A stretch of DNA of 57,697 nt from a virus. The first letter of the stretch is position 1. Every line of letters starts with the position of its first letter. A model generated the notes under the pieces. That model was not told the DNA's origin and searched no databases. It worked only from the letters and a program-made list of their open reading frames with translations. The stretch is from the IMG/VR virus record IMGVR_UViG_3300049255_000548, positions 1-57,697 of that record. One strand, written 5' to 3'. Shown piece after piece: positions 1-55,631 of this stretch. The position numbers and the translations under genes are program-made.

Positions 1-969
1 ATGTCTCTTTCTCCCCGACACACACGCGTTCAGTTCTCCGCTCCCGTCCTCCCTGAAATCGAGGCGCAGAGGGCGCGGTTCAAAAACGCCCAACTCGCCC
101 GCCACACGGTGGTCTCCTACGAGCGCGACTGGCGAACTTTTTGCGCCTGGTGTAAGGCCGCCGGACGCACGCCGCTGCCCGCATCCTCCGAGACCGTCGA
201 ACTCTATGTCACGGACCTGGTCGGCCGTGGCCGTAAGGTAGCCACCGTGGAGCGCCACACGCGGGGTATCCAGCACGCCCACCGCGATGCCGGCCTCGAA
301 AGCCCGTGCGGCGCCGAGCTGCACCGCCTGTTGCGCGGCGCGCGGCGCACGCTCTGCCAGATGCCCGTGCAGAAGGAAGCCGTCACGGTGGCGGAACTCC
401 GCCGCATCGTGAAAGCGATCGGACACCGCACCGCGATCGGCGCGCGCAACTGCGCGATCCTGCTTTTCGGCTTTGCCAGCGCCCTGCGCCGGTCGAGCCT
501 CGCGGCCCTGCGGCGCGAGGACCTCCGCTTCTACCGCGAGGGCATTGTCGTCACGGTCCGGCACGAAAAGCAGGACCGCGCCGGCAAAGGCCGAATCCTG
601 ACTATTCCCAAGGGAAAGTGCCCCGCGCTGTGCCCCGTACGCGCCCTGCGCCGCTGGCTCGAAGTCCGGGGCGGGGAGGATGGTCCGCTCTTCTGCCGCG
701 TCATGCGCGGGCATCCCAACGGCAAGCCGATCCTCGGCAACCGCATCACCCAGATCGTGCAGGAAGCGGTGGACGCCATCGGCCTCGACCGCACCCGCTA
801 CGGCGCACACTCCCTGCGAGCCGGCTTCGTCACGGCAGCTCTGGAGCGCGGCGTCAACGAAATTGCGGTGGCCCGCCACACCGGCCACGCGTCGCTCGAC
901 ATGCTCCGCCTCTACATGCGCTCGCGCCACTCCTGGCGGGGTAATGCCTGCGCGAAGGTGGGGCTGTGA
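1..969 (+). CDS. int: Tyrosine-type site-specific integrase
   Basis: 322-residue phage-integrase/XerC-type recombinase that would cut and rejoin attP and attB. An N-terminal SAM-like DNA-binding domain (about 25-115, with VVSYERDWRTFCAW) precedes the catalytic domain. The catalytic set is complete: Arg163 (ALRRSSL), Lys190 in the beta hairpin (HEKQDR), His270 and Arg273 (GAHSLRAGF), His296 (TGHAS) and the nucleophile Tyr305 (RLYM). The start is the first base of the window, so its promoter and upstream region are not visible. It is transcribed away from the early operon, and the GGTAGCC repeat cluster lies 230 bases past its stop. The intact active site argues for a functional temperate element. 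Confidence 0.95.
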   Translation: MSLSPRHTRVQFSAPVLPEIEAQRARFKNAQLARHTVVSYERDWRTFCAWCKAAGRTPLPASSETVELYVTDLVGRGRKVATVERHTRGIQHAHRDAGLESPCGAELHRLLRGARRTLCQMPVQKEAVTVAELRRIVKAIGHRTAIGARNCAILLFGFASALRRSSLAALRREDLRFYREGIVVTVRHEKQDRAGKGRILTIPKGKCPALCPVRALRRWLEVRGGEDGPLFCRVMRGHPNGKPILGNRITQIVQEAVDAIGLDRTRYGAHSLRAGFVTAALERGVNEIAVARHTGHASLDMLRLYMRSRHSWRGNACAKVGL

Positions 970-5517: not shown

Positions 5518-6027
5518 GTGCCGAGGTGTAGCATCTGCGGGCGAGAGATTGAATTGGGATCGTCCGCCATCTACGCCTTGGCTGAACAAGAGCGCTTTTT
5601 GACGGGCTCAGTTAGTCCGATGGCCTGTTTCAGGTGCCGGGGCCCAGCTGTCGACGGCTGCGAACCAGAAAATGCGGTGCCATACGCCAAAGAAGTGACT
5701 GGCGTGGCGCCACTAGCACCCGTGCCGATCTCCACTCGAAAGGCGCCTTGCTGGGTTGCCGAACAGTGGGCCACGTTCCGCGAGTATGATCTCAAGCCTT
5801 GGTGGCGCGACCTACGAGGAATAGCGTGGCGCGACGACTTTGCTGATGCCTGGCGGGAACTGCGCGGTCCGGAAAATGGAAGTCCCTACGAGCGCGTGGG
5901 GCGGCTGATCCCGATTGTCAGCGCGTTGCTGTTACTGGCGGTGGTCGCCGTAGCTCAAATCCTCGGGATGCTAGCGGTGGTTTGGAAGGTTCTTGCTTGG
6001 CTGTTCGGCCAAGCCATCTCACACTAG
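5518..6027 (+). CDS. Membrane-anchored zinc-ribbon protein
   Basis: 169 residues, GTG start two bases after the previous stop. N-terminal CSICGREIELG and later CFRC form a CxxC/CxxC site (about residues 4-7 and 37-40). The middle is hydrophilic and Trp-rich. The C-terminus holds a hydrophobic span (IPIVSALLLLAVVAVAQILG, continuing MLAVVWKVLAWLFG) that should enter the membrane, leaving the Zn head in the cytoplasm. No family recognised. The position suggests a lysogenic accessory gene. Confidence 0.65.
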   Translation: MPRCSICGREIELGSSAIYALAEQERFLTGSVSPMACFRCRGPAVDGCEPENAVPYAKEVTGVAPLAPVPISTRKAPCWVAEQWATFREYDLKPWWRDLRGIAWRDDFADAWRELRGPENGSPYERVGRLIPIVSALLLLAVVAVAQILGMLAVVWKVLAWLFGQAISH

Positions 6028-8854: not shown

Positions 8855-11800
8855 TTATTGAATTAAGTGCAACTGCCGCATTTCCCGGAGCAGCTTCTGC
8901 TGCTCGACGGCCGGCAAGTTGTCGAATTGCCGGTCGAGCTTCTTCCCCAGCTCGGGCAGAATCTGTTGCTTTTCCTCGGGCGTCGCTACGGCCGCCACCT
9001 GGATGGCCTGCGCCAGCGGCAGCCGTTCGAAGTCGGCCGCCAGACGCCCGACCTCGGCTCGCGCCGCGGCCTGCCGCATATCCTCCAGCGTAACCTTGCC
9101 ACCGCGCAGACCTTCGAGCGCCACCTGCGTGGCTTCCGCGTCGCGCTTGGCGCGGAGCAGCCCCGTCACGCGGTTCTTGATGCGGCTCCGTTCGTCGCTG
9201 GTCCAGCCGCCCGCCGGCCGCGCCTCGTCCTGATAGCGTGAGATCAACTCCTCCGCCGGGGTCTCCGTCACATAGCGCGGAGCTTTCGGAAATCCCGCGA
9301 AGCTGGCGGCCGCGCGCGCGGCTCCCGCGCCTTCCTGCTGCATCCGCTGGAAGCTCTGCCAGGCGATCGGCCGCGGCGCGTAGTTCAGCACGATCTTGAG
9401 CGCTTTTTGGGCCTCGGAGTCGTCGTCGTTCCAGATCTTCTGGTGGAAGTAGTCCTGGTTCTGCAAGACCTCGATGGTTCGCTCCAGCGTACCGCTCACG
9501 CCGCCTGCCGCCCATCGCAGCGGATGCCGGCGCATGGCGTCGTATTCCTTGACGTACGTCGGCGGCGCGACCCGCTGGTTCGGGTCGTTGGCGTCGGTCC
9601 GCGGGTAAAAGACGTCCTTCAGCTCGTGTGGCCACTGGTGGGCAAAAGCGAACGTGATGACGGTGCCGATCGCCGCCGTCAGCCCCGCCATGCCCAGCAG
9701 CCAGGAAAACTCCCGAGTCAGCCGCGGCCGACGCCTCTCTTGCGCCGCGTTCCACAGCTCGCGCACTTGGTTGCCCGGCGCCTTCACGCCCGCGCGCACG
9801 CTGCCTGCCTTCCAGGTTACGGAGCGCATCAGGATCTGCATGGCCGTTTTAAAGGTCCGGTTCCAGAATAAATTGTCGAAGTTCATCTCGCCGAAGCGGT
9901 CCTCGACGAAGTCCCACACCTCGCGGGCGACCTGCGCCCGGCTCACCTTCCCGCTCGCGATCTCCGCCTGCCGCTCCAGCAGTTCGGTGGAGTATTCCTT
10001 CAGAAACACCCCGACCTTCACGCGCGGGATGTACCACTCGAACAGCGGCACCATAACCGCTTCCGCCGCGGCCCCCAGCGAGCGGACGCCGGCGCCCAGG
10101 TAATTCCGCTGGCCCACCGCCTCGCGGAACGCCCGGATGGTGTGCTGCTTGTAATCGTTGTAGACGTCGAGACGTCCGCCGCCCTGAAACAAATCTTCCA
10201 TGAGCTGCCGGGCGTCGGGATACGCTTTCAGCAGCGCCTGCCCCTCGGACGTCTGCGCAAACGCCGCGGGGTCCCGAAGGTATTCTTCCCCCGACTTTCC
10301 CAGTCGCCAGTTTTCCCGTGCTGCCGGCGCCACGCCCAATCCCTTGGCAATGTCCTTCAGCGCGCCGGCGACGTCTCCCAAGTTGACGGCTTTCCGCAGT
10401 CCCAGGCCGATCGAGGAGCCGCCGGACTCCATCGTCTCGAATACCGCGTGGAAGCCGCTGAATCCCAGCTCGACCGCCGTGTAGCCGTTCTTGGCCGCCA
10501 TCACGGCCTGGCCTAGCGTGCCGAGCGCCGTGTCCTGCTCCCGCAGCCGGTCCCGGCTGAGATAGTTGTTCATCAGCCGCGCCATGCCGCGTTCCACGTA
10601 CCACTCGCCCGCATTCACCATCCCCTGCGGTACGGAGAAAAACGTCCGCGCGATGCCGTCGTCCAGTTTCACAAACCCGTCCGGCGGCTTCGACCCGAAC
10701 CGCACGAACACCCGCGCCTTCATCTTCCGGGCTTCTTCCCACCACTTCTGTGCGGTCAAAAACTTCATCACGTCCACGTAATGCCGGGTGAAATTTTCAA
10801 CCGGGTTGTAGTCGAAGGGAACGCCGCCCAACTCGATCCCTTCGCTCATGTTTTGGAACACGTGCCGCTTGAACTGCCCCTTGGAACCCTGCAATGGCCG
10901 CTGCCCCACGCCCTTAAAGCTGTCCGTCTTACTGCCCGGAATCGTCTTCCACATCACCCGCTGGTGATTCTCCAGCCAGGCCACGTTGCGGTATTGGGTC
11001 TGGGCCTTGTAGAGGCCGTCATCCGCCTGGCGCAAAAAGTCGGCGGTGTTTTGCAGCTCCGGGGTGAGCTGCCGCTGGCCGGTTTTGATCCGGTCCATGA
11101 AATCCACCTGGAACGCCTGGAGCGGGGTGAGTCCCTTGGCCTTCAGGTCCGGCCGGGCCGCCGCCACCTGGGCAACCACTGCGGGGTCGGCCTTCGCTCC
11201 CACGGAATCCGCAAACTGCTGCGCCGCCGCGCGGAACAGAAACTCTTCTTTGTCCCGGTCGCCTTTCAGCTTGTAGATGGAATCGAGCGCCTTGCTCGAT
11301 ACGCCCACCTTCGGCAGGATGGTTTCCACCAGTCCCTTGACGAGGGTCTTGGCGCCTTCCTTGGCGCCCTTCAGCGTGGGGATCAGGTCCTGCTCGATGA
11401 ACTCCGGAACGCCCAGCGCCTTACCCGCGGCCGTAAGCGGAGTCGTGAGGATGGAAGCGTTGACGAACCCGCGCTCTCCGGCGCGGCCTACCGGGGCGGA
11501 TTCTGCGGATCGTACCGGGCGGTCCGGAGCGGCGCCGGGTGGAGTTCCTCCAGCGCGTGGCTGTGGGGTAGCCCCGCGAGCGGAACTTTCCGGAAGTCCG
11601 GCGAGCTCGCCGGCGTTCCCGGATATAAGCGATCCAGTTCCGCCTGAAGGCCCGCCTCTCCCTGCCGGTCCAGCGCCTCCAGCGCGCGATGGGTATTCTC
11701 CGCCGCCAGGTCGATCTCCGCGTCGGAAAGCGGTCTGGATTCGTCCGGCAATCTCTCGGGTCTCTGGGACACGGCCATATTCCTTTCGCAGCGTGCGGAG

Positions 11801-14800
11801 GTAAAGCGCCGCCAGTCTCCGCGCCTGCCCGTATTGTAGGCTCAATTCGGCGAAACGGCCAGGGGCCATCAGCCGCACTCCGATTTCGGCCGCCATCTGG
11901 CCGGCGGAAACATCCCCGTAGCCGCGCCCGGCCAGTGCGCGCGCCGCAGCCCGGGCGTCCCCGTCCTCGAAGAACGTCGCCTGCGAGCCCTCGATGTGGG
12001 CGTTTAAATCGCCGCCCGACGCCGAAGCCTGGATCGCGTGTCCGATCTCCTCGTCGAGCGACACCTGCCGCATGGCGTCGGGCATCTGCGCGTGATCCTT
12101 GACCAGCACCAGCGACTTGCCCGCCCGCGCGGCGCCCTCCGTAGCTTCCCGTAACTGCCGCAATCCCGGCCGGCCGCCGCGCTCCATCTCCCTGTCGATC
12201 CGGGCCAGCAGCGTCCATGTATCTTGCGGGGCGACGGTGATTCCGCCGTAGTGCAGTGCGGCATAGTCCGCGGGAAGGCCCGGGCTGCCGATGCGGCCCA
12301 GCAATTCGATACCGCTGGGATTCGCCAAATAGGCGTGCGCGTACGGCGCTTCCTGTGGATCGAGCGGAATCGCTTCTAGCCGCGCTTGCGCCGCGTGCCA
12401 GCCCAAACCCGCGCCCGTATAGTAGACTTGGTCCCGGACCGCCATGCGGGGCGCCACCGACGCGGAAAACAGGCTGCCCTGCTCCGGCCCTTCCTCCTCG
12501 AACAGCCCGCGGTTCTCTGCCGGCCGGAGCTTCGCTGCCGCCGGGTCGGCGGACCTCATTACATCTTCGTAATGAGTGCGGCGGGCCCACTCCTTTCCTT
12601 CGTCCGTTCCCAGAAATTCAGGTAAGGGCCTGCCGGTTGCCTGATGTAGCACTTTCTCCAATGCCCCAGCATCGGCGTGCTCTCGCACCCCCAGGGCGCC
12701 CCGAACGGTGCGCTGCTCCACTTGAAACTGGCCGCGGTCAATCGCATCGTGAAGGGCCTGGATTTCGGATGCCGTCGCGTCACGCGATGTCGAAGCGTAC
12801 CCGCGCCCGCGGCCCATATGCGTGGAGTGCAGCACCTGGATCTTACCGCCACGCATTCCAAACCTTCCGAGGCCCGGCACGTAGCCTTCGATGCTGGCAC
12901 GTGGAGGTTGCGGCCCTTCCGCAAGGGCACGCCAGGCTTGATAAATCTCGCGGCCGGTTTGGCCCAGCGAAGGAGGCGCAGCGCGGGCCGCCGCCGGCGC
13001 CTCGGCTGGAATCGGTTCCGTGCTCCGCGGCGGCGCATCTTCGAGCGCCCCTGCAGCGATCGTTCCTGCCGGCCTCGCCGGACCTAATTGGGCCGCCAGT
13101 CTCGGCGCCTCTTGAGCGGGCGGCGCGGCGCCGCCCGAAAACTGGGGTCGAGGCGGTGGCGGCGTCGCTCCCGGCGGCAGCGCCGGCGCGGCAGGCCTCT
13201 GCGGCTCCGCCGGCACCGGCCCGTGATAATTCTCGCCCGCTCTCAGGCCGAGCCGCGTTTCGATTCCGGGCGGCGCCTCCACGTGACGGCCGTTTTTCAG
13301 AAACTGCAATCGAAACGGTTGCCTTCCCGGCTCGACCGCACTCATGAAATCGTCCGCCCGCAGCTTCTCGATCTGAAGCTGGTCCGGTCCCATGTCGGGG
13401 AAGAATGCCTGCCGGATCTCCTCGGCGCCGACAGGGCGCAGCGACCGCACCACCATACGCGCCGGGGAGGCAAAACCGCCGCGCCCTGCCACGAAATCCT
13501 GAAGGACAACGGGCTCCCTGGCCACCTCTGCCGGCGGGCGTGGCGGCGCCATTTCCCCGCGCCTCGCCGGGCCGACCTCCGCCGGGGCCTGCGCCGCCGG
13601 AAGCGGCGGCGGGTTGCCCGCAATGTTCAGCGGAGCCGGCGGAGCACCGGCGGGCCCGGCCGCCACTTCCGGCGCCTGCGGCCGCGTGGATATCGGGCCG
13701 CCGGAGCCGGCGGCCAGGTCCCGCGATCGCGTGGCGGCGGTTCCAGCGTCCGGCGCGCCGCCCAGCGGAATCTCGACCCGTCGCCCGTCCTTGCCGGAGA
13801 ACACGACGGAGCCGATCCGCACCGTCCGCCCCGTTACTCCCGGAATGGCCGCCCTGTCGTACCGCCCCGAGATCGCCGCGTCCGGCTTCAGATAGGCGAT
13901 AGTGGCGTGTGGCTGGTAATCCGGATGCTTGTCGCCGTTGGGAAGCTGGGCAATCTTCGCGTTCAGCCGGTGTAGGTCTGTGGAATCGACGTCCACCTTC
14001 AGTACATGGGCATCGTCGTTGCGGAACAGCGAAGCCCGCCCCAAGGTCGCCGTAATCGGCGGCTCGGACCGCAGCAGTTCCGCAACCGCGTCCGGGTCCG
14101 CTCCATGCAGCCCGTACTTGACGGTGATGTGCGGCTCGCTCTCGCGGCCGTCCCCGGCCAGATCCTGGTCCGGGATCTGGTCGCCATACTGCATCAGCGG
14201 GTTGGCGACGTCCGGAGGCAGTTGGACCTGGGTCGAGGAAAACTCATGTGCCGGCGGCTGTGCCTCGCCGATCGCGCCGCCCTGATTCCACTCCGTCTCC
14301 CCGTGCCGCACCAGGTAGATGCCCGGCTGGCTGCTGTCGGTCGCGGGCTCGATCTTCCAGGGCCCGGCCGGCGCCGGAGTCATGGGCATTCCAGGCGGCC
14401 ACGCCGGCCGCATCCATTGCACCGGCCGGTACAGCCGCACGAACTGCCCCGGCTCCGGCACCGGCGCGTCCAGCAGGTTCTTGTCGATCCCGTTCGGATC
14501 GGCCGGCATGCCGGATTCCACCCAGGCCCGCAGCACGCGCGCATCCCGCGAATGGCTCACCACCGCAAATCGCTGTTCCGGATTCCGCATCCAGTCAGCC
14601 AGGATCGGCTGCATGGCCCCGGTGAAGTTCCGGATGAACTGGTTGTGGGACTCGCCCGGATACTGCGAGAGCGGCCCCTGCCCCGGCGGCGCGACGTCGG
14701 GCGCCTCCTTCATCAGCCGCTCGACGGTATCTTTCGTGTCGGCGTGCGGCTGCCCTTCCAGCTCGCCCAGCGCCCACGGCCGCAGCCCCGGCACCGTCTC

Positions 14801-16441
14801 CATCGGTGCGCCGTTGGCGTCCGCGATGGCCTGGCCCATCTCCTGGGTGCGCGCCAGCGGCCCCGCAAATACCTTGTCGATGCCCTCCAGCTTCTCCGCC
14901 GCCTCGGCTTCCTGCTCCCGTCCCTCCGGGGTAACCGGAATCTCCGACGTTCCGCGCGTGATTTCCTCGCCGCCGTTGGCCGCCGACAGGCGGTGTGCGA
15001 TCTCGTGCTCCGGCGGCTCGACTTCCACCGACCCGCCCTCCGGCGTGAGCTTCTGGGTCTGTGCGATGGTTTCGGGCAGGTGCGCCTGATCCGTCACCGT
15101 CGACTGCACGGTCTCGCCCGAGGCGTCCTTCGCCGTCACCGCCACCGTCGTGCTGTCGTCGAGCTGCGTCTTGTCCGGGGCGCCCGTACCGCCGTCGGTC
15201 GCGCCCAGCAGCTCGTTGAGACGGTTCTGCGCCACGGCCTGGTCGATCGACTGAACGTTTGCCAGCGCCGGATTGTAGTAGAACGTGTTGCCGAAAGAAT
15301 CCTGGTAGACCTTCATCCCCTTGGGCCGGCGCGTGAGTGCCGTTCCCTTCGGGAACATGACGGCGCGGCGGGCGCCGGACCGGAGCTGCTCCACCTGCGC
15401 CTGCATCGTCCCGGGCGCTTCTGGCACGGTCGCCGCCGCGGCGGTGGGCGCGGGCGTTGCGGGCGAGGGTGCAGCGGGCGACGGCGCCGCGGCGGTCGCC
15501 GATTCCGGCGGCGCAGGACTGGCGCCCGCCATCCCTCGCTCGGCCTGCCGCCGCGCTGCCTCCTGGACGATCTGTTCCTTTTGCCAGCGGTAGTTCTTCG
15601 GCGGATTCTGCTCGATGGCGTTGGCCTGCGCCACCAGCTCCTCGTCCGTCATGTCGCGGAACGCCTTGGGCTCCTCGAAGGTGCCGCCAAACTTGACCTC
15701 CGGTGAGCCCGCCGCTACATACGCCCTCCGGATCAGGTATCCGGCGCCCCCTGCGCCCGCCAGCAGCCCCGCTACGTTGCCCACGAATTCGGAGACCTCC
15801 GGACTCGCGCCGGCTGCGCTGGCCGCCGCGCTCGCGCCTTTCTGTGCCACCGCGGCGCCGACCATCGTGGCGGCGGTGCCGATCGGCGCCGTCACGCCGC
15901 CCACTACGGCCAGCGGCGTCGCCACCTCACCCAAACCGCCGATGATCTTCGAGCCGCCCAGTGCTTTCTGCTGCAGGCCAGGTTCGGCGGTCTGTTCCAC
16001 GCCCTCGGCGATGTGCCGTACACCGCTCACGGGAGCATCGAGCACGGGGAAGGTGCCCTGCGGGGTGGTCTGGTAGAGCTGGCCCGTCCTGGAGCGCCGT
16101 AGCGGTTGCTGCGCGCGGGTTTCCTGGTCGGTGAGAAGTCCGGGGGGCTTGGGAGGCGGGGGAACTCCCGGCGGGACGCCGCCCAGCTTTTCCATTCCCG
16201 GCACGGGCGCCGGCGGAGGGGGTGGCACGCCTGGCTCTTGATCCGCAACAGTCAAGCCATGCTTCTGCGCAAGAGCGTTGTAATCCGGAGGGGACTGTGT
16301 AAGAGGGCCCTCAGAAAAGGTCAGACCATGCTTCTGCGCAAGAGAACTATAATCGGGCACAACGGGAGTAGGTGGCTCGTCGGAGAGCTGGATGCCGTGC
16401 TTTTGAGCAAGGCTGTCGTAATCGATAGTTTGATCGGCCAC
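8855..16441 (-). CDS. 2528-residue polyvalent internal-virion protein
   Basis: Giant multidomain protein, GTG start five bases past the preceding stop. In order: three N-terminal repeats DYxxLAQKHGL (about 8-66); hydrophobic Ala/Gly segments (about 165-240) that could insert in membrane; a histidine-phosphatase-like domain (about 475-630; PVTPEGREQEAEAAEKL, then VVSHSRDARVL) with a degenerate N-terminal RHG; a second canonical YLVRHGETEWNQ near 708 with little of a domain after it; a 2H phosphoesterase domain (about 735-890; HITVKYG near 768 and HATIAYL near 843); Pro/Ala-rich linkers; a zincin-like EEIGHA near 1461 lacking the first His; and a long conserved helical C-terminus (about 1700-2528) with a membrane span near 2245. 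This is the polyvalent-protein design: one polypeptide packaged in the head and ejected with DNA, carrying enzymes aimed at host defences or metabolism. Confidence 0.85.
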   Translation of the reverse strand: MADQTIDYDSLAQKHGIQLSDEPPTPVVPDYSSLAQKHGLTFSEGPLTQSPPDYNALAQKHGLTVADQEPGVPPPPPAPVPGMEKLGGVPPGVPPPPKPPGLLTDQETRAQQPLRRSRTGQLYQTTPQGTFPVLDAPVSGVRHIAEGVEQTAEPGLQQKALGGSKIIGGLGEVATPLAVVGGVTAPIGTAATMVGAAVAQKGASAAASAAGASPEVSEFVGNVAGLLAGAGGAGYLIRRAYVAAGSPEVKFGGTFEEPKAFRDMTDEELVAQANAIEQNPPKNYRWQKEQIVQEAARRQAERGMAGASPAPPESATAAAPSPAAPSPATPAPTAAAATVPEAPGTMQAQVEQLRSGARRAVMFPKGTALTRRPKGMKVYQDSFGNTFYYNPALANVQSIDQAVAQNRLNELLGATDGGTGAPDKTQLDDSTTVAVTAKDASGETVQSTVTDQAHLPETIAQTQKLTPEGGSVEVEPPEHEIAHRLSAANGGEEITRGTSEIPVTPEGREQEAEAAEKLEGIDKVFAGPLARTQEMGQAIADANGAPMETVPGLRPWALGELEGQPHADTKDTVERLMKEAPDVAPPGQGPLSQYPGESHNQFIRNFTGAMQPILADWMRNPEQRFAVVSHSRDARVLRAWVESGMPADPNGIDKNLLDAPVPEPGQFVRLYRPVQWMRPAWPPGMPMTPAPAGPWKIEPATDSSQPGIYLVRHGETEWNQGGAIGEAQPPAHEFSSTQVQLPPDVANPLMQYGDQIPDQDLAGDGRESEPHITVKYGLHGADPDAVAELLRSEPPITATLGRASLFRNDDAHVLKVDVDSTDLHRLNAKIAQLPNGDKHPDYQPHATIAYLKPDAAISGRYDRAAIPGVTGRTVRIGSVVFSGKDGRRVEIPLGGAPDAGTAATRSRDLAAGSGGPISTRPQAPEVAAGPAGAPPAPLNIAGNPPPLPAAQAPAEVGPARRGEMAPPRPPAEVAREPVVLQDFVAGRGGFASPARMVVRSLRPVGAEEIRQAFFPDMGPDQLQIEKLRADDFMSAVEPGRQPFRLQFLKNGRHVEAPPGIETRLGLRAGENYHGPVPAEPQRPAAPALPPGATPPPPRPQFSGGAAPPAQEAPRLAAQLGPARPAGTIAAGALEDAPPRSTEPIPAEAPAAARAAPPSLGQTGREIYQAWRALAEGPQPPRASIEGYVPGLGRFGMRGGKIQVLHSTHMGRGRGYASTSRDATASEIQALHDAIDRGQFQVEQRTVRGALGVREHADAGALEKVLHQATGRPLPEFLGTDEGKEWARRTHYEDVMRSADPAAAKLRPAENRGLFEEEGPEQGSLFSASVAPRMAVRDQVYYTGAGLGWHAAQARLEAIPLDPQEAPYAHAYLANPSGIELLGRIGSPGLPADYAALHYGGITVAPQDTWTLLARIDREMERGGRPGLRQLREATEGAARAGKSLVLVKDHAQMPDAMRQVSLDEEIGHAIQASASGGDLNAHIEGSQATFFEDGDARAAARALAGRGYGDVSAGQMAAEIGVRLMAPGRFAELSLQYGQARRLAALYLRTLRKEYGRVPETREIAGRIQTAFRRGDRPGGGEYPSRAGGAGPAGRGGPSGGTGSLISGNAGELAGLPESSARGATPQPRAGGTPPGAAPDRPVRSAESAPVGRAGERGFVNASILTTPLTAAGKALGVPEFIEQDLIPTLKGAKEGAKTLVKGLVETILPKVGVSSKALDSIYKLKGDRDKEEFLFRAAAQQFADSVGAKADPAVVAQVAAARPDLKAKGLTPLQAFQVDFMDRIKTGQRQLTPELQNTADFLRQADDGLYKAQTQYRNVAWLENHQRVMWKTIPGSKTDSFKGVGQRPLQGSKGQFKRHVFQNMSEGIELGGVPFDYNPVENFTRHYVDVMKFLTAQKWWEEARKMKARVFVRFGSKPPDGFVKLDDGIARTFFSVPQGMVNAGEWYVERGMARLMNNYLSRDRLREQDTALGTLGQAVMAAKNGYTAVELGFSGFHAVFETMESGGSSIGLGLRKAVNLGDVAGALKDIAKGLGVAPAARENWRLGKSGEEYLRDPAAFAQTSEGQALLKAYPDARQLMEDLFQGGGRLDVYNDYKQHTIRAFREAVGQRNYLGAGVRSLGAAAEAVMVPLFEWYIPRVKVGVFLKEYSTELLERQAEIASGKVSRAQVAREVWDFVEDRFGEMNFDNLFWNRTFKTAMQILMRSVTWKAGSVRAGVKAPGNQVRELWNAAQERRRPRLTREFSWLLGMAGLTAAIGTVITFAFAHQWPHELKDVFYPRTDANDPNQRVAPPTYVKEYDAMRRHPLRWAAGGVSGTLERTIEVLQNQDYFHQKIWNDDDSEAQKALKIVLNYAPRPIAWQSFQRMQQEGAGAARAAASFAGFPKAPRYVTETPAEELISRYQDEARPAGGWTSDERSRIKNRVTGLLRAKRDAEATQVALEGLRGGKVTLEDMRQAAARAEVGRLAADFERLPLAQAIQVAAVATPEEKQQILPELGKKLDRQFDNLPAVEQQKLLREMRQLHLIQ

Positions 16442-27307: not shown

Positions 27308-27733
27308 CTAGAGAATCTTCGTGAGGTAGTTCGCGGTCTCGACCGGCAGCCGGTTCCTCCAGTCGGCCGGGAAATCGTTCAGCAGCTTCGCGAGGTTGCC
27401 CGAGCCCCAGTTATAGGCCGCCAGCATCTTGGCGGGGTCGCCGCCGAATTGCCGGAAGAGCTGCCCGTCGAGCTTCACGCCCCCGAAGACGTTCTCGTGC
27501 CAGCGCCGCGGATCGACGCCCAGGCTGCGCGCCGTCGCCGGCATCAACTGCATCAGCCCGATCGCTCCCGAGCTCGGATTGACCGCGTTCGGCTGGAAGC
27601 TCGATTCCTGCTGGCACTGCCGCACCGCCAGGTCCGGATCGAGGCCTTCGGCCGTCGCCAGCAGGCGGAGCAGGGTTTCAGCGTCCGCGCGGGTGAACCC
27701 CGACGCGCTTGGAGAATTGTTTAAGGAATTCAT
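27308..27733 (-). CDS. Virion-associated lytic transglycosylase
   Basis: 141 residues, soluble SLT/goose-lysozyme fold. Catalytic Glu43 in CQQESSFQPNAVNPSSGAIG, followed by GLMQLMPATARSLGV, FGGVKLDGQLFRQFGGD and MLAAYNWGSG: all four SLT motifs. It cleaves peptidoglycan to an anhydro-muramyl product. No signal peptide, so it is more likely carried in the tail to open the wall during DNA entry than secreted. ATG 27733 overlaps the stop of the gene upstream (ATGA). Confidence 0.9.
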   Translation of the reverse strand: MNSLNNSPSASGFTRADAETLLRLLATAEGLDPDLAVRQCQQESSFQPNAVNPSSGAIGLMQLMPATARSLGVDPRRWHENVFGGVKLDGQLFRQFGGDPAKMLAAYNWGSGNLAKLLNDFPADWRNRLPVETANYLTKIL

Positions 27734-42647: not shown

Positions 42648-43084
42648 CAGGTATTCAGAAAGCTAAACGGTGCCGAGAAAAATTCCCACGCGGTGCCGTT
42701 CCACTCGATCGGTAGGATCGTGCAGGAGTTGGCCCGGCTGTCGATCGCGTAGTTGTTGTCCACTTTGAGGTTGGCTGGAAAAGCGAAGGTACGGCCTCCG
42801 GTGCTGTCCTGCAAGAGCCGCAGGTAAATCTGCGTGCCCTGGGTCGGGTTTCCACCGCCCGAGGTGAGGCTGCTCGATGTCACCGCGCCGCTGAGGGTAA
42901 GCGTTAACACCTGGCCGAGCGCCGCATCGAAGATGGGCGTGGCGGAGAAGGTTACCGTGGCCCATTGCAGCGGATCGGGCTGGTTGTCGATCCATGAGAG
43001 ATCGTCGCTCCCGCGAAACAGCCCGAAGCGCCCCAAATTGCGTTTGCGGCCGGCAGCCAGGAAATTTCGGAAGACGAGAGACAT
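42647..43084 (-). CDS. Small receptor-binding or fibre-tip protein
   Basis: 145 residues. N-terminal FRNFLAAGRKRNLGRFGLFR then beta domain SWIDNQPDPLQWATVTFSAT ... TLTLSGAVTSSSLTSGGG ... IYLRLLQDSTGGRTFAFPAN, ending ILPIEWNGTAWEFFSAPF. The end is the same tip pattern (xxWxGTxWxxxS) as in the spike gene at 40746. Probably a short fibre or a paralogous tip used for receptor switching. Start overlaps the terminase stop (TAATG). Confidence 0.65.
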   Translation of the reverse strand: MSLVFRNFLAAGRKRNLGRFGLFRGSDDLSWIDNQPDPLQWATVTFSATPIFDAALGQVLTLTLSGAVTSSSLTSGGGNPTQGTQIYLRLLQDSTGGRTFAFPANLKVDNNYAIDSRANSCTILPIEWNGTAWEFFSAPFSFLNT

Positions 43085-44847
43085 TATGTCCTCGCCCGCC
43101 CGATGCGGGAAAAGTTCCAGCCGGTGCGCTTCCCGAACTGCCGCTCGTAGTCGGCCTCGGCCTTGGCGGCCACATTGTGGATCTGGGTGGCGTCGGCGTC
43201 CGGATTGCGGCGGCGCAGATCGAGAATGCGCTGGGCGGTAAAGACTTCGACGGGCGGCCGGATCTCAGCGTGCTCCCGGTATCCCAAAATGCCGGCGAGC
43301 AGGGCTTCGCCGCAAAGCGATGGGGCGGCCAGGTCGATCTTTTTTTCATCCCGGGTGAGGCTGGGAAGCTCTGCGATCATGGACTGGCAGGAGTCGTGAA
43401 TCACCAGCCCGGGAAGCGGCTCCGCGGGCTTTTCTCCGGCGACGTGGCGCATATATTCGTCGAACCGCGCCTGGCCGTCCGGTTCGTCGAGGAGCTTCTT
43501 TGCGGTCTCCCGGTCGTAGGGAATGGGCTCGGCGGTGCTGAGGGACCACCAGCGCAGCAGACCGCGAATGTGCTCCCATCCGCCCGCTCGGTCTCCGGTC
43601 GCTCCTTTGAGGAGGATGCTCGCCTTCTGCGCTTTGCGGCGCCGCGTTTCCAGGGACAGCCATGCCTGATCGGCCGTCATGGCGCGTTCGGCGTCGGTGA
43701 AGGCGTAGGTGAAGGTGGCGTCGCGCCCGGCGACGTTTTCGATGCCCTTGGCTATTTCGCCTGCAATGGGCTTGCCCGTCACGTGCGCATCGAAGCAGTC
43801 GGGTTGTAGAAACAGGACCAGGCTGCGAGTATTTTGCAGCTCCTCGATCGACGCCTCGGCGATGGCGACGCCCGCCTCTTCGGCGGTGCCGCGGCATTCG
43901 ATTTCGCGGTAGACGTGAAGCTGCTGGTCCGGGCGCAGACAGAACCAAGCCGCGTAGCAGACGCCGGCCTGCCAGCTCGCGGCCACCCAGTGCAGCCACC
44001 AGCCGTCCAGCGCGTGGGACCGCACGACGTGGCAGGCCTCGGCCGGCTCGCCCTCGCGGTTGTGTGCGCGGAACTCGGGCAGCAGACGCATTATCTCGGC
44101 CTTGTTCAGCCGGTTGAGCGCCTGGGACATCGCGTCGACCTGGTCGTCGTTGGCGCCGCGCGGAAACGCGGCGCATTCGTTGATGAAGGCCGGCACCCAC
44201 TCCGCGATCGCCGGGTGCGGCAAAAAGACATTTCCAGCTTCGACCTGCGGGCTGATGGCGGATGCGCGCGCCTCTTTCGAGCCAATCGGGACGATGGCGA
44301 TGATGCCCGGCACCTGCGCTTCGAGCGCCCAGATGATGGCCGGACCGTTAGCGGCGTTCTCGATCAGCTTCGCGCCGGCGGGCCGCTCCTCGGCCAGTTT
44401 CTTGACCTCGCTGGCGGTTCGCGAGAAGTCCCAGCGTCCTTTGACCTGGTGCAATAGGAATTTGCGGGCCGCGGCACGGCCCCAGTGCTGGCCCACCACG
44501 AAGTCGGATTCTTTCAGGTCGCGGTAGCTCATGTCCCAGGAGTGGAGCGTTTCGTCCAGCGGCGGCAGCGTGATGGGCTCGATCGAGCGAAATGTCCCAT
44601 CGGGCTGCTTGACCGGGATCGGCGGCAGACTGGCGCCGGCCGGTTGCCAAAAGCGCCACCAGTGCCGCTGGAACACGCCGCCGGTGGCGGGAGACGGCCG
44701 CTGCTGGAGCTGCCCGGCGGCGCCGAACGGTCCCAGCGATTTCTTCAGTTCTTCCAGCTCGGGAGGGCCGAACCGCTCCGGCCACAACAGTTCTCCCGGC
44801 TTGGTTCGCGGGTCGGACCAGCCTATGGACGTCGTGTGTTTGGGCAA
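43084..44847 (-). CDS. terL: Large terminase, C-terminal polypeptide (nuclease)
   Basis: 587 residues if read from TTG 44847 (an ATG at 44931 is possible). It continues the broken terminase: GWSDPRTKPGELLWPERF, GQLQQRPSPATGGVFQRHWW, then an RNase-H-fold nuclease with Asp105 (SWDMSYRD), Glu163 (LIENAANGPA) and Asp235/238 (RGANDDQVDAM), the TIGR01630 type that cuts DNA concatemers during packaging. Residues about 265-525 look like a second, degenerate terminase nuclease domain (HALDGWWLHWVAAS, QLHVYREIECRGTAEEAGVA, VIHDSCQSMIAELPSL). The ATPase half is at 45530-46297. Confidence 0.8.
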   Translation of the reverse strand: MPKHTTSIGWSDPRTKPGELLWPERFGPPELEELKKSLGPFGAAGQLQQRPSPATGGVFQRHWWRFWQPAGASLPPIPVKQPDGTFRSIEPITLPPLDETLHSWDMSYRDLKESDFVVGQHWGRAAARKFLLHQVKGRWDFSRTASEVKKLAEERPAGAKLIENAANGPAIIWALEAQVPGIIAIVPIGSKEARASAISPQVEAGNVFLPHPAIAEWVPAFINECAAFPRGANDDQVDAMSQALNRLNKAEIMRLLPEFRAHNREGEPAEACHVVRSHALDGWWLHWVAASWQAGVCYAAWFCLRPDQQLHVYREIECRGTAEEAGVAIAEASIEELQNTRSLVLFLQPDCFDAHVTGKPIAGEIAKGIENVAGRDATFTYAFTDAERAMTADQAWLSLETRRRKAQKASILLKGATGDRAGGWEHIRGLLRWWSLSTAEPIPYDRETAKKLLDEPDGQARFDEYMRHVAGEKPAEPLPGLVIHDSCQSMIAELPSLTRDEKKIDLAAPSLCGEALLAGILGYREHAEIRPPVEVFTAQRILDLRRRNPDADATQIHNVAAKAEADYERQFGKRTGWNFSRIGRART

Positions 44848-44851
44848 GGAA

Positions 44852-45142
44852 TTACTTGGTTCGCCGCCTGGTGACCGCGGCGAGCTGCGCCGGCAGATCC
44901 CGGTATTCCCGGCTCCAGTGATCCTCAGCATTGCGCCAGGCCTGCGCCAGTTCGTCGGCGGAGACGTTGACTTGCTCGCGATGCGCTTGCAGGTGCCACT
45001 CGACCTGGAGGTACGATGCGGGATCTTCTACGGCCGGCGGCGGATTGGGCTGAGCCGGCGTGGGCCGCGGCATGAACACGGCAGAGCCCGCAGCCGCGCG
45101 GACCAGGAGCCTGCGGAGAAGATCGCGAAAGCGGCGTTTCAT
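44852..45142 (-). CDS. Terminase-splitting cassette ORF 3
   Basis: 96 residues from ATG 45142 (ATGA overlap). Basic start (MKRRFRDLLRRLLVRAAAGS), Pro-rich linker, then helix DELAQAWRNAEDHWSREYRD. Stop is four bases before the TTG of the terminase C-half. No nuclease or recombinase motif, so it does not look like a homing endonuclease. Confidence 0.6.
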   Translation of the reverse strand: MKRRFRDLLRRLLVRAAAGSAVFMPRPTPAQPNPPPAVEDPASYLQVEWHLQAHREQVNVSADELAQAWRNAEDHWSREYRDLPAQLAAVTRRRTK

Positions 45143-51483: not shown

Positions 51484-52209
51484 TCAATGCCCCTTCGCCG
51501 CAGCCCGCGAGGGGGTTTTTGACACACCCTTTTTCGGGCCATTTTTCGACGCCTTTTCCAGTGCTCGGCGAATGCTCGCCTGGGGAACTTTCAGCAGCTT
51601 CTCAATCGTGCGCCAACTTGCGCCGTCCTGCCGTAGCTCCCGCGCCTGGTCGATCCGAAACACCTTCCCTGGCCGCCCCAGCTTCTTCCCTTCGCCCCGC
51701 AACCGCTCGAGCGCCGCCTTCGTGCGGTCGGAGATCCGCGCCCGCTCCATCTTCGCGATCGTCGCCGCCAGCGCGATCATCACCTCGCCAAACGGACCGG
51801 CGGTGCGAAACTGCGGCTCGGTGTAAGACTCGAACCCGCAGCCAAAATCCATCAGCCGTTTGAGGTGTGCGAAAGTCTCGGACACGCCCTCGCGGGTAAA
51901 CCGGTCGAGAGCCCACACCACCACCATGCCGATCTCGCGCCGCGACGCCGCCGAGAAGACCTGCTGCATCGCCGCCCGCCGAGCGTGCTTTCCGGTCTCG
52001 TAATCGACGAAGTCCCGTGTCTCCCATCCCTGGGCGCGCGCGTAGGTCCGCAACGGGCCGAGCTGGTTCTGCGGGTCCTGCCCCTCGTACCGCCGGCACG
52101 TACACCTCAAGCGCTCGCAACGACCCTTCCCTTTCGAGTGGTCCGTCTTGGCGTGGCCACACGCGTCGCACTTGTCTTTCGAGACCCGGACATATAGAGC
52201 GGCGAGCAT
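51484..52209 (-). CDS. Serine recombinase (resolvase/invertase) with Cys-rich insert
   Basis: 241 residues from ATG 52209. Catalytic Ser10 in LYVRVSKD; then an insert holding Cys14, Cys17, His24, Cys31, Cys36 and Cys38 (CDACGHAKTDH, CERLRCTC); then the normal fold: QDPQNQLGPLRTYARAQGWE, MVVVWALDRFTREG, IALAATIAKMERARISDRTK, and a C-terminal HTH (ELRQDGASWRTIEKLLKVPQ). Resolvase-size, not the large integrase type. It may resolve dimers or invert a segment. A zinc site after the catalytic Ser is unusual. Inverted repeat 52224-52248 overlaps its ribosome site. Confidence 0.85.
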   Translation of the reverse strand: MLAALYVRVSKDKCDACGHAKTDHSKGKGRCERLRCTCRRYEGQDPQNQLGPLRTYARAQGWETRDFVDYETGKHARRAAMQQVFSAASRREIGMVVVWALDRFTREGVSETFAHLKRLMDFGCGFESYTEPQFRTAGPFGEVMIALAATIAKMERARISDRTKAALERLRGEGKKLGRPGKVFRIDQARELRQDGASWRTIEKLLKVPQASIRRALEKASKNGPKKGVSKTPSRAAAKGH

Positions 52210-52223
52210 CCTCAAATTCCTCT

Positions 52224-52248
52224 TGACACAAAAACTGCTATTGTGACA
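52224..52248. promoter_or_regulatory. Inverted repeat upstream of serine recombinase
   Basis: TGACACAA (52224-52231) and TTGTGACA (52241-52248) are inverted with one mismatch around nine bases. It lies in the divergent gap between the recombinase and the plus-strand gene at 52323, directly upstream of the recombinase ribosome site. Good candidate for an operator or a recombinase binding site. Confidence 0.5.
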
Positions 52249-52322
52249 TCCTCGAACTGCGGCAAGAAGTAGAGGCCGCCGCTTTCCCGGCGATACAGGG
52301 ATAAGAGGAAAAGGAGTAGGCA

Positions 52323-52691
52323 ATGCAACTGTATGACGTGTTCTACAAGGGCCGCGCGATGGACTGTGATGTGCCACTTCCGCCGGCCGCGCCAGATATC
52401 GACCGAGTCGTCAACACTAACTGGGATCACCGCACCCTTCGCCCCGTCAAGGTGGGCGGGTCCTACGACTGGACGCGCGAGATCGTCACCCGCAAACTCT
52501 ATGCGCCGACCGGGATCTCCAGCACGTCCCCCGAGGGGCAGTCGGGCACGCTGGAGGCGCTCGGCTTGATGCGCCTGATCTCCTCGGAGCGCAAATACGC
52601 ATGGGGCCCGGTCGCGACCGTCATCATGCGCGTCGAAGACGAGGAGACCAATCGCGCCGCCCTGCTGGATGGCTGGAGGCTGGAGGCGTAA
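52323..52691 (+). CDS. Hypothetical protein divergent from the recombinase
   Basis: 122 residues; AAAAGGAG seven bases before ATG. MQLYDVFYKGRAMDCDVPLP, DRVVNTNWDHRTLRPVKVGG, TLEALGLMRLISSERKYAWG. Mixed alpha-beta, no family recognised. Transcribed away from the recombinase as a two-gene plus-strand unit with the next Zn protein. Confidence 0.65.
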   Translation: MQLYDVFYKGRAMDCDVPLPPAAPDIDRVVNTNWDHRTLRPVKVGGSYDWTREIVTRKLYAPTGISSTSPEGQSGTLEALGLMRLISSERKYAWGPVATVIMRVEDEETNRAALLDGWRLEA

Positions 52692-53475: not shown

Positions 53476-55221
53476 TCAATCCCTCAACTCCCTCGCCAGG
53501 CGGACCGCGCCCGCCCCACGCGCCTCCAGATACCCGTACCGCAGCAAGCGCGCAAATGCCGTCGACACCGGCCCGCTGTCGGCGTAACCCGCCGCCTCAC
53601 GCGCCGCGCCTTTGCGCACCGCGTCCCCGCCAGCTTCGACCACCGCGCGCAGCAGCGCCTTTTCGACCTTGGAAAGTTTTTCGCCGGCAAGCAGAAGTTC
53701 GAGGAGGGCGCTCCCGGTCGGCAGCGGCTCGAATGGGCCCAACACCGCAATGCCCTCGGACGTAATCCTCACCAGGCGCCCGTCCGTTTGAGTCCAGCAG
53801 TTCCGCTGGAACTCAGCGAACGCGGTCGAAACGGGGCCGCTATCGGCGTACCCGGCATGAAGGCGCACCTGCGCTTTGGTAAGGCCCGCCGGATGCTGCG
53901 CCAGCGCGGAAAGCATCGCGCGGTGCATCGCCGGTAGCGCCCCACCGCCGTTACGGCCGCCGCCGGAACTAACGGCCCTGCCGGCGGCCCCGGCCCGCGC
54001 CGGCGCCGGCCGCTCGATCCGGCGGCCCTCGATCGACGGCGACGCCCGGAGCCGGCGCGGCTCGGTAATCGTATCGACGAACCGGGCCAGGTGCTGCGCC
54101 TGAACCAGCGCCTCGTTCAGCTTGTCCGCGGCATCGGCGATTGCAAGAATAATCTCGCCGTAATCCCGATGGACGGAGCGCGCCGCTTCCTTCCGGACCT
54201 CCGATTCCCGGGCGGCCGTCAGTTCGGGGTTCGCGGCCTGCGCTCTCCCCATCTCGGCCCTCAGCCGCGCCACCTCCGCGCGGAGCAGTTTCGGGTCATT
54301 CTCCCGGGCGCGCTCAATCGTGGCTGACATCCGCTGGCGGAGCGCCGCCAAATCGACATCGGCCAGGCGCTTTGGCTGTACCCGCTTCTCCCCGGGCCTG
54401 GGCGTGGCGCCGCTATCGAACGTCTCAATCGGCAGCACGTGGACGCGCCGGAAGATCCCCGCCTCAGTGGGCCAGCCGGGAGACCAGAACCAGGCGTCCC
54501 CGATGGGCAGGGACGGCAGTGATTCCATCAGGATCTTCCGCTGTTCCGACGTGCCGTGTTTCTCGATCCAGGCGTCCATCGCCTCCATGTCCTGCGGGGC
54601 GATGGTCCGCAGGGCGACCAGCACCTCACTCTGCGTCAGGACGTTCTTGTTCAGCACCGCCGAACGCTGCGTCACGAGCATGGTGCCGATGCCGCGCTGT
54701 CCGCCGCGGCGCACGATATCCTCCGCCGCACCCAGCATGCGCTCCTCGCCGCGGTACGGCTTCTGCGGCGCGATTGCGTCGGCTTCGTCGAGGATCAGCA
54801 TCACCGGAGTTCGGTACCGCTCCTGCGCCTTCAGCCGGTACAGCGTTTCGAGAAAGGCAGCCATGAACGTCGCCACCTCGTGCTTGCGGAAGGCCGATAC
54901 GTCCAGGAGCAGGCGCACGTTCTCCTCCACCGCTACGCTCGCCACCAGCTCGCCCGCGCCGGGTTCGAGTGGCGCATCACCGTGCTCCCCGCCCAAAATC
55001 GTAATAGGCAGGCCGGCCGACTTCCCATCTCCGCTCGACCGCATGCCCCACCAGTCCCCCTTCGGGTCCACGACGATCACCTGCTGGCCGATGCGGAAGA
55101 GCTGCTCGGCGAACCGGCGCGCCGTGTAGCTTTTGCCGGCACGGCGCTTGGCCAGAACTGCAATCGTCTGCGTTACCGCGTCCGGGGGAAGGCTGAAGTC
55201 CTTCGCCAATTCGAGCTTCAT
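53476..55221 (-). CDS. HerA/FtsK-type DNA-translocating ATPase
   Basis: 581 residues from ATG 55221 (ATGA). Walker A VLAKRRAGKSYTARRF (Lys30), PKGDWWGM (DPK-type HerA motif), Walker B VMLILDEADAIAP (Asp145/Glu146), sensor LVTQRSAVLNKNVLTQSEVL; DUF87/HerA family. A central coiled coil (EVARLRAEMGRAQAANPELT) leads to two C-terminal winged helices with the same phrase (YADSGPVSTAFAEF and YADSGPVSTAFARL). Hexameric HerA pumps DNA with NurA nuclease or in defence systems; neither partner is apparent here. The coupled 137-residue gene upstream may be the partner. Confidence 0.85.
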   Translation of the reverse strand: MKLELAKDFSLPPDAVTQTIAVLAKRRAGKSYTARRFAEQLFRIGQQVIVVDPKGDWWGMRSSGDGKSAGLPITILGGEHGDAPLEPGAGELVASVAVEENVRLLLDVSAFRKHEVATFMAAFLETLYRLKAQERYRTPVMLILDEADAIAPQKPYRGEERMLGAAEDIVRRGGQRGIGTMLVTQRSAVLNKNVLTQSEVLVALRTIAPQDMEAMDAWIEKHGTSEQRKILMESLPSLPIGDAWFWSPGWPTEAGIFRRVHVLPIETFDSGATPRPGEKRVQPKRLADVDLAALRQRMSATIERARENDPKLLRAEVARLRAEMGRAQAANPELTAARESEVRKEAARSVHRDYGEIILAIADAADKLNEALVQAQHLARFVDTITEPRRLRASPSIEGRRIERPAPARAGAAGRAVSSGGGRNGGGALPAMHRAMLSALAQHPAGLTKAQVRLHAGYADSGPVSTAFAEFQRNCWTQTDGRLVRITSEGIAVLGPFEPLPTGSALLELLLAGEKLSKVEKALLRAVVEAGGDAVRKGAAREAAGYADSGPVSTAFARLLRYGYLEARGAGAVRLARELRD

Positions 55222-55631
55222 CGAGCCTCCTGCCCTGCAGGGGCGCCGGTTTCGGCGTCGGCGGCCGTGGAGCTCTTCGCCCCGCCGCGCTTCGCCCGGC
55301 GGCGTGGCGCGTCGGGCGGTTGCGCCGCGATCACTTCCGCCCAGTGCTGTTCGATCGCCGCGTCGGTCAAGTCTCCCCGGAACAGTTGGAGTTGAGGGCG
55401 GTTCTGATGAAAGCGCTTCGGGAACCGCTCCCACGGAATATCCGCCGCGCGAAACCCGAACGCCTCAATTGCGTCGATGATCGCCTTCCGGGTTGGCCTA
55501 CCGGTGGTTAAATTTATCATCCCGCCAGGCAGAAATTTGTACGCGGTCAGCGCAATCTCCAACAGCCGCATGACGCGTTCGTCGCCGCCGAGAATCTCCA
55601 GAACCTTCGCGTCGTCGTTCCCCTCGGTCAC
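55218..55631 (-). CDS. HerA-coupled hypothetical protein
   Basis: 137 residues, GTG start (GTGA overlap; GGAGG eight bases away). ILGGDERVMRLLEIALTAYK, FLPGGMINLTTGRPTRKAII, DAIEAFGFRAADIPWERFPK, a basic C-terminus. Short alpha-beta domain, no NurA or nuclease motif. Tight coupling to HerA suggests joint function. Confidence 0.6.
   Translation of the reverse strand: MTEGNDDAKVLEILGGDERVMRLLEIALTAYKFLPGGMINLTTGRPTRKAIIDAIEAFGFRAADIPWERFPKRFHQNRPQLQLFRGDLTDAAIEQHWAEVIAAQPPDAPRRRAKRGGAKSSTAADAETGAPAGQEAR

Follow-up and report, generated by a model that had tools for sequence, protein, structure and literature searches.

A circularly permuted histidine-phosphatase domain, with its nucleophile strand apparently moved to the C-terminal end, in a giant phage protein that is probably injected into bacteria

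A histidine phosphatase in swapped order

A giant protein encoded by an uncultivated phage contains a histidine-phosphatase domain in circularly permuted order. Judged by its sequence, the domain (residues 479-730) has been rearranged such that the strand bearing the catalytic nucleophile now lies at its C-terminal end. Histidine phosphatases are among the largest and best-studied enzyme superfamilies, and an RHG motif at the N-terminus is the mark by which they are recognized. A permutant that occurs naturally with a C-terminal nucleophile breaks this rule and shows that the histidine-phosphatase fold tolerates a cut beside the active site. It also extends the set of enzymes that may enter bacteria on polyvalent proteins by a phosphatase. 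A conserved circular permutation of this fold is apparently undescribed. We found no mention of a circularly permuted histidine phosphatase in open-access full texts, and neither 'histidine phosphatase' nor 'phosphoglycerate mutase' occurs in the main text of Iyer et al. 2017 (PMC5512222).

The protein is encoded in a 57.7-kb virus record, which was analyzed over its whole length of 57,697 nucleotides (the window). The original prediction described one 2528-residue ORF, and our analysis confirmed it; the strand, which had been left unstated, is minus (16441 to 8855). The ORF lies at the end of the virion gene cluster. Other genes in the record code for an integrase, ERF, Gp157, a terminase nuclease, a portal protein, and a transglycosylase. 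PADLOC identified no defence family. The protein places several enzymatic domains, of types typical of polyvalent proteins, on one long phage polypeptide. The features needed to describe the phosphatase are as follows.

8855..16441, minus strand: ORF for a multi-domain polyvalent-type protein, 2528 aa, GTG start
14252..15007, minus strand: circularly permuted histidine-phosphatase domain, residues 479-730
14510..14968, minus strand: phosphatase body, residues 492-644, equivalent to PF00300 positions 14-160; contains the second Arg (R531) and second His (H630)
14285..14323, minus strand: relocated catalytic strand GIYLVRHGETEWN, residues 707-719, equivalent to the N-terminal positions of PF00300; contains R712 and the nucleophile H713

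The domain scores 79.8 bits with the His_Phos_1 profile (cut-off 21.7; E 2.8e-22), which assigns it to branch 1 of the superfamily. The PF00300 match falls into two swapped blocks, with positions 14-160 of the profile at residues 492-644 and positions 1-19 at residues 707-725. A 42-residue piece containing the catalytic strand LVRHGETEWN scored 22.8 bits on its own, which is also above the cut-off of 21.7. Solved structures gave the same picture. Chain residues 21-90 of the phosphatase 5zkk match the start of the domain and residues 4-20 match its end, and this swapped order was also seen against solved phosphoglycerate-mutase-family and PhoE-type phosphatases. The presence of a histidine-phosphatase domain had been predicted correctly, but its extent had been given as about residues 475-630 rather than about 479-730 in permuted order. 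The prediction had also treated the RHGETEWN motif at residue 712 as an orphan. This view does not hold, because the motif matches PF00300 positions 1-19 of the same domain. The domain is complete. Its chain has been opened behind RHGxTxxN and its former ends connected, which makes the "orphan" the domain's own first strand.

The cut lies in the loop that follows RHGxTxxN, and the domain accordingly starts with the (I)RG-x-x-D-x-PLT segment and ends with the catalytic strand LVRHGETEWN. This terminal strand would enter the centre of the sheet last, completing a phosphate pocket formed by R712-H713, R531, and H630. The completed pocket would be that of an active phosphomonoesterase.

Recurrence of the permuted order

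We collected relatives through searches of IMG/VR and GTDB, followed by a profile scan. An IMG/VR search with the phosphatase segment of the window alone gave no match, and relatives were reached only through loci carrying the 2H domain described below. Ten distinct permuted domains were identified, one in the window and nine in other uncultivated phage lineages: L023 (= L158), L029 (= L113), L030, L101 (= L145), L102, L103 (= L142), L104/L105, L110, and L140. L140 (JAGWFS010000009.1) is a phage-like contig in a GenBank MAG labelled Thaumarchaeota, and is probably mis-binned or a provirus. Among 33 near-complete domains with a recognizable RHG strand, the strand was exclusively C-terminal in 10 and exclusively N-terminal in 23, and no domain carried it at both ends. 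Eight aligned members share about 24-36% identity with the permuted domain of the window, and the permuted copies are 27-42% identical to that of L103. The recurrence of the permuted order in nine other lineages indicates that it did not arise by chance. No permuted phosphatase was found in reference phages.

Four of the ten permuted copies are small genes, and three of these start or end at or near the cut point. The L142 gene (6004-6666) is 221 aa long, begins with an ATG at 6004, reads MPVDTIRGSSDLPL, and ends YLIRHGATDWNG-stop. It overlaps the end of the portal gene and sits between the portal gene and a head protein gene. This gene offers enzymologists a small, clean test protein. The small gene of L104/L105 starts MEKFRGSADVPLT and continues to CRHEKTPWN, and the L102 gene ends YFIRHFMTGWNK-stop.

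The permutation could also be reversed computationally. Using a profile built from canonical phage relatives, moving the terminal strand to the front raised the score of all ten permuted domains, by a mean of 7.9 bits. Shuffled tails gave a mean change of +0.5 bits and a maximum of +1.4 among 200 runs. The profile-profile score (hhalign) rose from 320.7 to 355.4 after rotation, and the alignment covered positions 3-194 of 201.

Catalytic residues and predicted fold

The catalytic residues of the superfamily are largely retained in permuted order. The nucleophile His of the RHG motif, the Thr that follows, and the second Arg are present in 10/10 permuted members. Seven of the ten retain the RHG Arg and seven the second His, and all four catalytic residues are present in six members, including the window (R712, H713, R531, and H630). 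Because three members lack the RHG Arg and three lack the second His, some permuted members may be non-catalytic. The general-acid Glu of the LRE motif is absent, and the window has Pro555 at this site. The general acid is also a residue other than Glu in 21/23 canonical relatives, which marks this substitution as a trait of the phage subfamily and not an effect of permutation.

AlphaFold2, run with a nine-row alignment, gave the permuted domain a pLDDT of 86.9 and a pTM of 0.83, and the relocated segment was predicted as a confident strand with local pLDDT values of 93-96. The top PDB matches from Foldseek were all histidine phosphatases (probability 1.00, TM about 0.55); a TM of this size is expected for a permuted domain since the aligner is bound to chain order. 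BFVD contained no full-length match to the permuted phosphatase.

We compared the domain to its canonical counterparts. It resembles branch-1 phosphatases (PF00300; PhoE-type 1h2e, the phosphoglycerate mutase family, and CobC) in its body, its RHG nucleophile His, its second Arg and His, and its predicted fold. It differs from them in the C-terminal position of the RHG strand, which is the N-terminal strand (beta-1) of branch-1 enzymes, and in having Pro where they have the general-acid Glu, a residue that most canonical phage relatives lack too. The position of the strand makes the domain a permuted variant and not one of the canonical members. Its nearest canonical relatives are phage phosphatases of the phrog_12933 type (L107, L109, L121, and others). 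These share the LRPW-x-x-G, GESFN-D/Q-F-K, and AW motifs with the permuted domains but carry the RHG motif at the N-terminus in 23/23 cases tested. Annotation based on motifs or their order labels such permuted domains truncated or "orphan", so more of them may be hidden in phage genomes.

Origin of the permuted module

The nearest whole-protein relative of the window protein, L001 (61% identity in the C-terminus), contains the segment that flanks the phosphatase.

14987..15463, minus strand: segment 327-485, common to L001

In L001 this flank is joined almost directly to the 2H domain with no phosphatase between them. The clean absence of the phosphatase indicates that the domain is a cargo module that was gained or lost. 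In a tree of the permuted set, a single origin was not rejected (AU p 0.26), and the set was not shown as one group.

The permuted order could in principle reflect a problem with the data, since the window is a single metagenomic record. An assembly, binning, or frame artefact is nevertheless refuted by the same order in nine other lineages, which come from independent IMG/VR contigs and one GenBank MAG contig, and we regard its probability as negligible. In the textbook case, a circular permutation arises from a duplication that is later truncated. The domain might therefore be a dead fossil of a tandem duplication, in which the N-terminal strand of the first copy was lost and the second copy is now a truncated remnant, leaving the C-terminal RHG as debris. 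Some members, such as L029 and L030, are indeed degenerate. Debris is hard to reconcile with an order kept in ten lineages with an invariant nucleophile His and Thr, with four small stand-alone genes of which three end or start at the cut, or with the high confidence with which AlphaFold2 folds the terminal strand. We consider such a fossil very improbable.

The neighbouring 2H phosphoesterase domain

The phosphatase is followed by a second enzymatic domain.

13751..14248, minus strand: 2H phosphoesterase domain, residues 732-897 (PF13563 E 3.7e-10, AlphaFold2, Foldseek)
14123..14131, minus strand: first HxT motif, H771/T773, invariant in 46 homologues
13901..13909, minus strand: second HxT motif, H845/T847, invariant in 46 homologues

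This 2H phosphoesterase is real but ordinary. The predicted motif pair (HITVKYG at 771 and HATIAYL at 845) was borne out, as was the 2H fold: AlphaFold2 gave a pLDDT of 93.4 and a pTM of 0.86, and Foldseek matched 2H enzymes with probability 1.00. The domain thus combines two HxT motifs with the bilobal fold of the superfamily, and the model bears a strand-rich C-terminal extension. The family is common in phages, where it was found at 549 or more loci; among 80 ORFs examined, 44 were 1000 aa or longer. One example is gp321 of Tunturiibacter phage Tunturi_5 (L015 1486-5574), a giant protein annotated as a MutT/NUDIX hydrolase that holds a 2H domain of the same family. Its gene adjoins a head-tail connector gene, and this isolated phage is a possible laboratory model.

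The comparison with Acb1 gave a mixed result. Acb1 was the best match in a sequence-profile search of the PDB (9q2g, E 5.8e-8), and the window domain shares the 2H fold with Acb1 from FBB1 (7t26) and Burkholderia phage BCSR5 (9q2g). Foldseek matches were spread over LigT-type CPDases, Usb1, a plant cyclic phosphodiesterase (best TM 0.68), and Acb1, with the first three ahead of or level with Acb1. Membership in the Acb1 family was rejected at 20.1 bits against the curated PF23474 cut-off of 27. The segment around the second HxT motif is the only part that aligns to FBB1 Acb1, and the C-terminal half of the window domain is longer. The homologous 2H domain of L030 (residues about 1092-1196) passes the Pfam cut-off for Acb1 (35.3 vs 27 bits), and by this score it appears to be a better Acb1 candidate than that of the window.

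A conserved carrier with exchangeable cargo

The remainder of the protein contains a zincin-like module and a long C-terminal region.

8867..11401, minus strand: conserved C-terminal carrier region, residues 1681-2525
9647..9703, minus strand: predicted membrane span, residues 2247-2265
11642..12439, minus strand: module 1335-1600, common to L029; degenerate zincin-like EEIGHA at 1464 (12035-12052)
27308..27733, minus strand: separate SLT transglycosylase gene

A conserved C-terminus with a membrane span had been predicted, and both were recovered. The C-terminus is present in 14 loci (L001-L014; about 11 distinct proteins) and has one hydrophobic span. It matched nothing in Pfam, the PDB, or reference phages. 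It also gave no match to LPD38 (PF18857), a search in which the controls were silent as well. Different proteins carry different cargo on this C-terminus, including PBECR1 (L001), an SLT transglycosylase (L006), a RadC-like domain (L009), and ddrB-ParB (L011). Together with the phosphatase and 2H domains of the window, this variety supports the polyvalent architecture that had been proposed and, indirectly, ejection from the virion. In L029, phosphatase, 2H, and zincin-like modules follow one another as they do in the window but this C-terminus is absent, indicating that cargo moves between carriers. On these comparisons, the phosphatase and 2H domains are exchangeable cargo of a large virion-type protein, and its conserved C-terminus serves as the carrier.

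The SLT fusion in L006 places a homologue of the window SLT gene at the N-terminus of the same carrier protein. A fused transglycosylase is a typical feature of ejected internal virion proteins, and this fusion supports, but does not prove, ejection. The location of the window ORF where the virion gene cluster ends points the same way, also indirectly. The giant protein is probably injected into bacteria. The zincin-like motif was degenerate as predicted: EEIGHA lacks the first His of HExxH, and the L029 homologue reads EELHHA. With this His absent in both proteins, we rejected a zincin role.

Possible functions at phage entry

We think it probable that the permuted branch-1 phosphatase is, with the 2H domain, swappable cargo of an ejected virion-type carrier, and that these hydrolases act at entry. 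The protein would be packaged and ejected with the DNA, and its hydrolases would act on phosphate-bearing molecules of the host. A cyclic or internucleotide phosphodiester would first be opened by the 2H domain; the phosphomonoester thus exposed on a nucleotide signal or a damaged RNA end would then be removed by the phosphatase. We infer catalysis, ejection, substrates, and cooperation from the architecture, and a two-step phosphodiesterase-phosphatase reaction on such a signal or RNA end is a reasonable supposition. In four ORFs (those of the window, L023, L029, and L030), the permuted phosphatase lies upstream of a 2H domain, although this association (4/10) was partly found through 2H searches; the DNA examined around the other six permuted lineages contained no 2H domain.

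Two alternatives were weighed. The original prediction was of an ejected anti-CBASS or anti-Thoeris weapon; on this view the 2H domain would be an Acb1-type anti-CBASS nuclease delivered at entry, which would make the phosphatase incidental. The profile matches to Acb1 structures and the score of the L030 homologue favour this idea, but the window domain itself falls below the Acb1 cut-off, CPDase, Usb1, and LigT rank ahead of or level with Acb1 in the fold search, and the strand-rich extension sets the domain apart. We find an Acb1-type role unlikely. A counter-signalling role would in any case not be a new idea. Iyer et al. (2017, PMC5512222) described 2H domains with two HxT motifs in giant multi-domain phage proteins, suggested that they degrade RNA or nucleotide signals, and predicted that they counter nucleotide-activated immunity; the window 2H domain differs from theirs in its pairing with a permuted phosphatase. 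Somewhat less doubtful, though still not the reading we favour, is RNA-end processing. Here, metal-independent RNases, such as host anticodon nucleases or PBECR-type cargo on related proteins, would leave 2',3'-cyclic phosphates that the 2H domain opens, and the remaining phosphate would be removed by the phosphatase. This chemistry is standard for 2H enzymes (PMC5512222, PMC7824862), the fold matches to LigT, CPDase, and Usb1 are consistent with it, and L001 bears PBECR1 and 2H in one protein. Against it, Iyer et al. remark that polyvalent 2H domains are not associated with RNA ligases (PMC5512222), and no ligase turned up in those genes of the window that were scanned.

Our preferred reading, hydrolase cargo acting at entry, can be extended in a way that we regard as a long shot. 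The phosphatases would constitute the first natural permutant family of histidine phosphatases and would act after 2H, as the second enzyme in an ejected system that destroys a signal in two steps, 2H opening the cyclic signal and the phosphatase removing the exposed phosphate. With the nucleophile strand at its end, the domain would stay inactive until refolded in the host.

Other features of the record

The terminase large-subunit ORF of the window (43084-44931, minus strand) matches at about residues 34-283, mostly the RNaseH-like nuclease half; the more than 300 residues that follow have no match. In L142, the terminase ORF (311 aa) likewise gave a partial match. The ATPase half of the terminase may be encoded by a gene of its own. 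At 53476-55434 on the minus strand, away from the virion cluster, lies a gene for a HerA-like or terminase-like ATPase (DUF87, HerA_C, phrog_2666). The record also contains a resolvase-type serine recombinase (51484-52377, minus strand) and a tyrosine integrase (1-969, plus strand).
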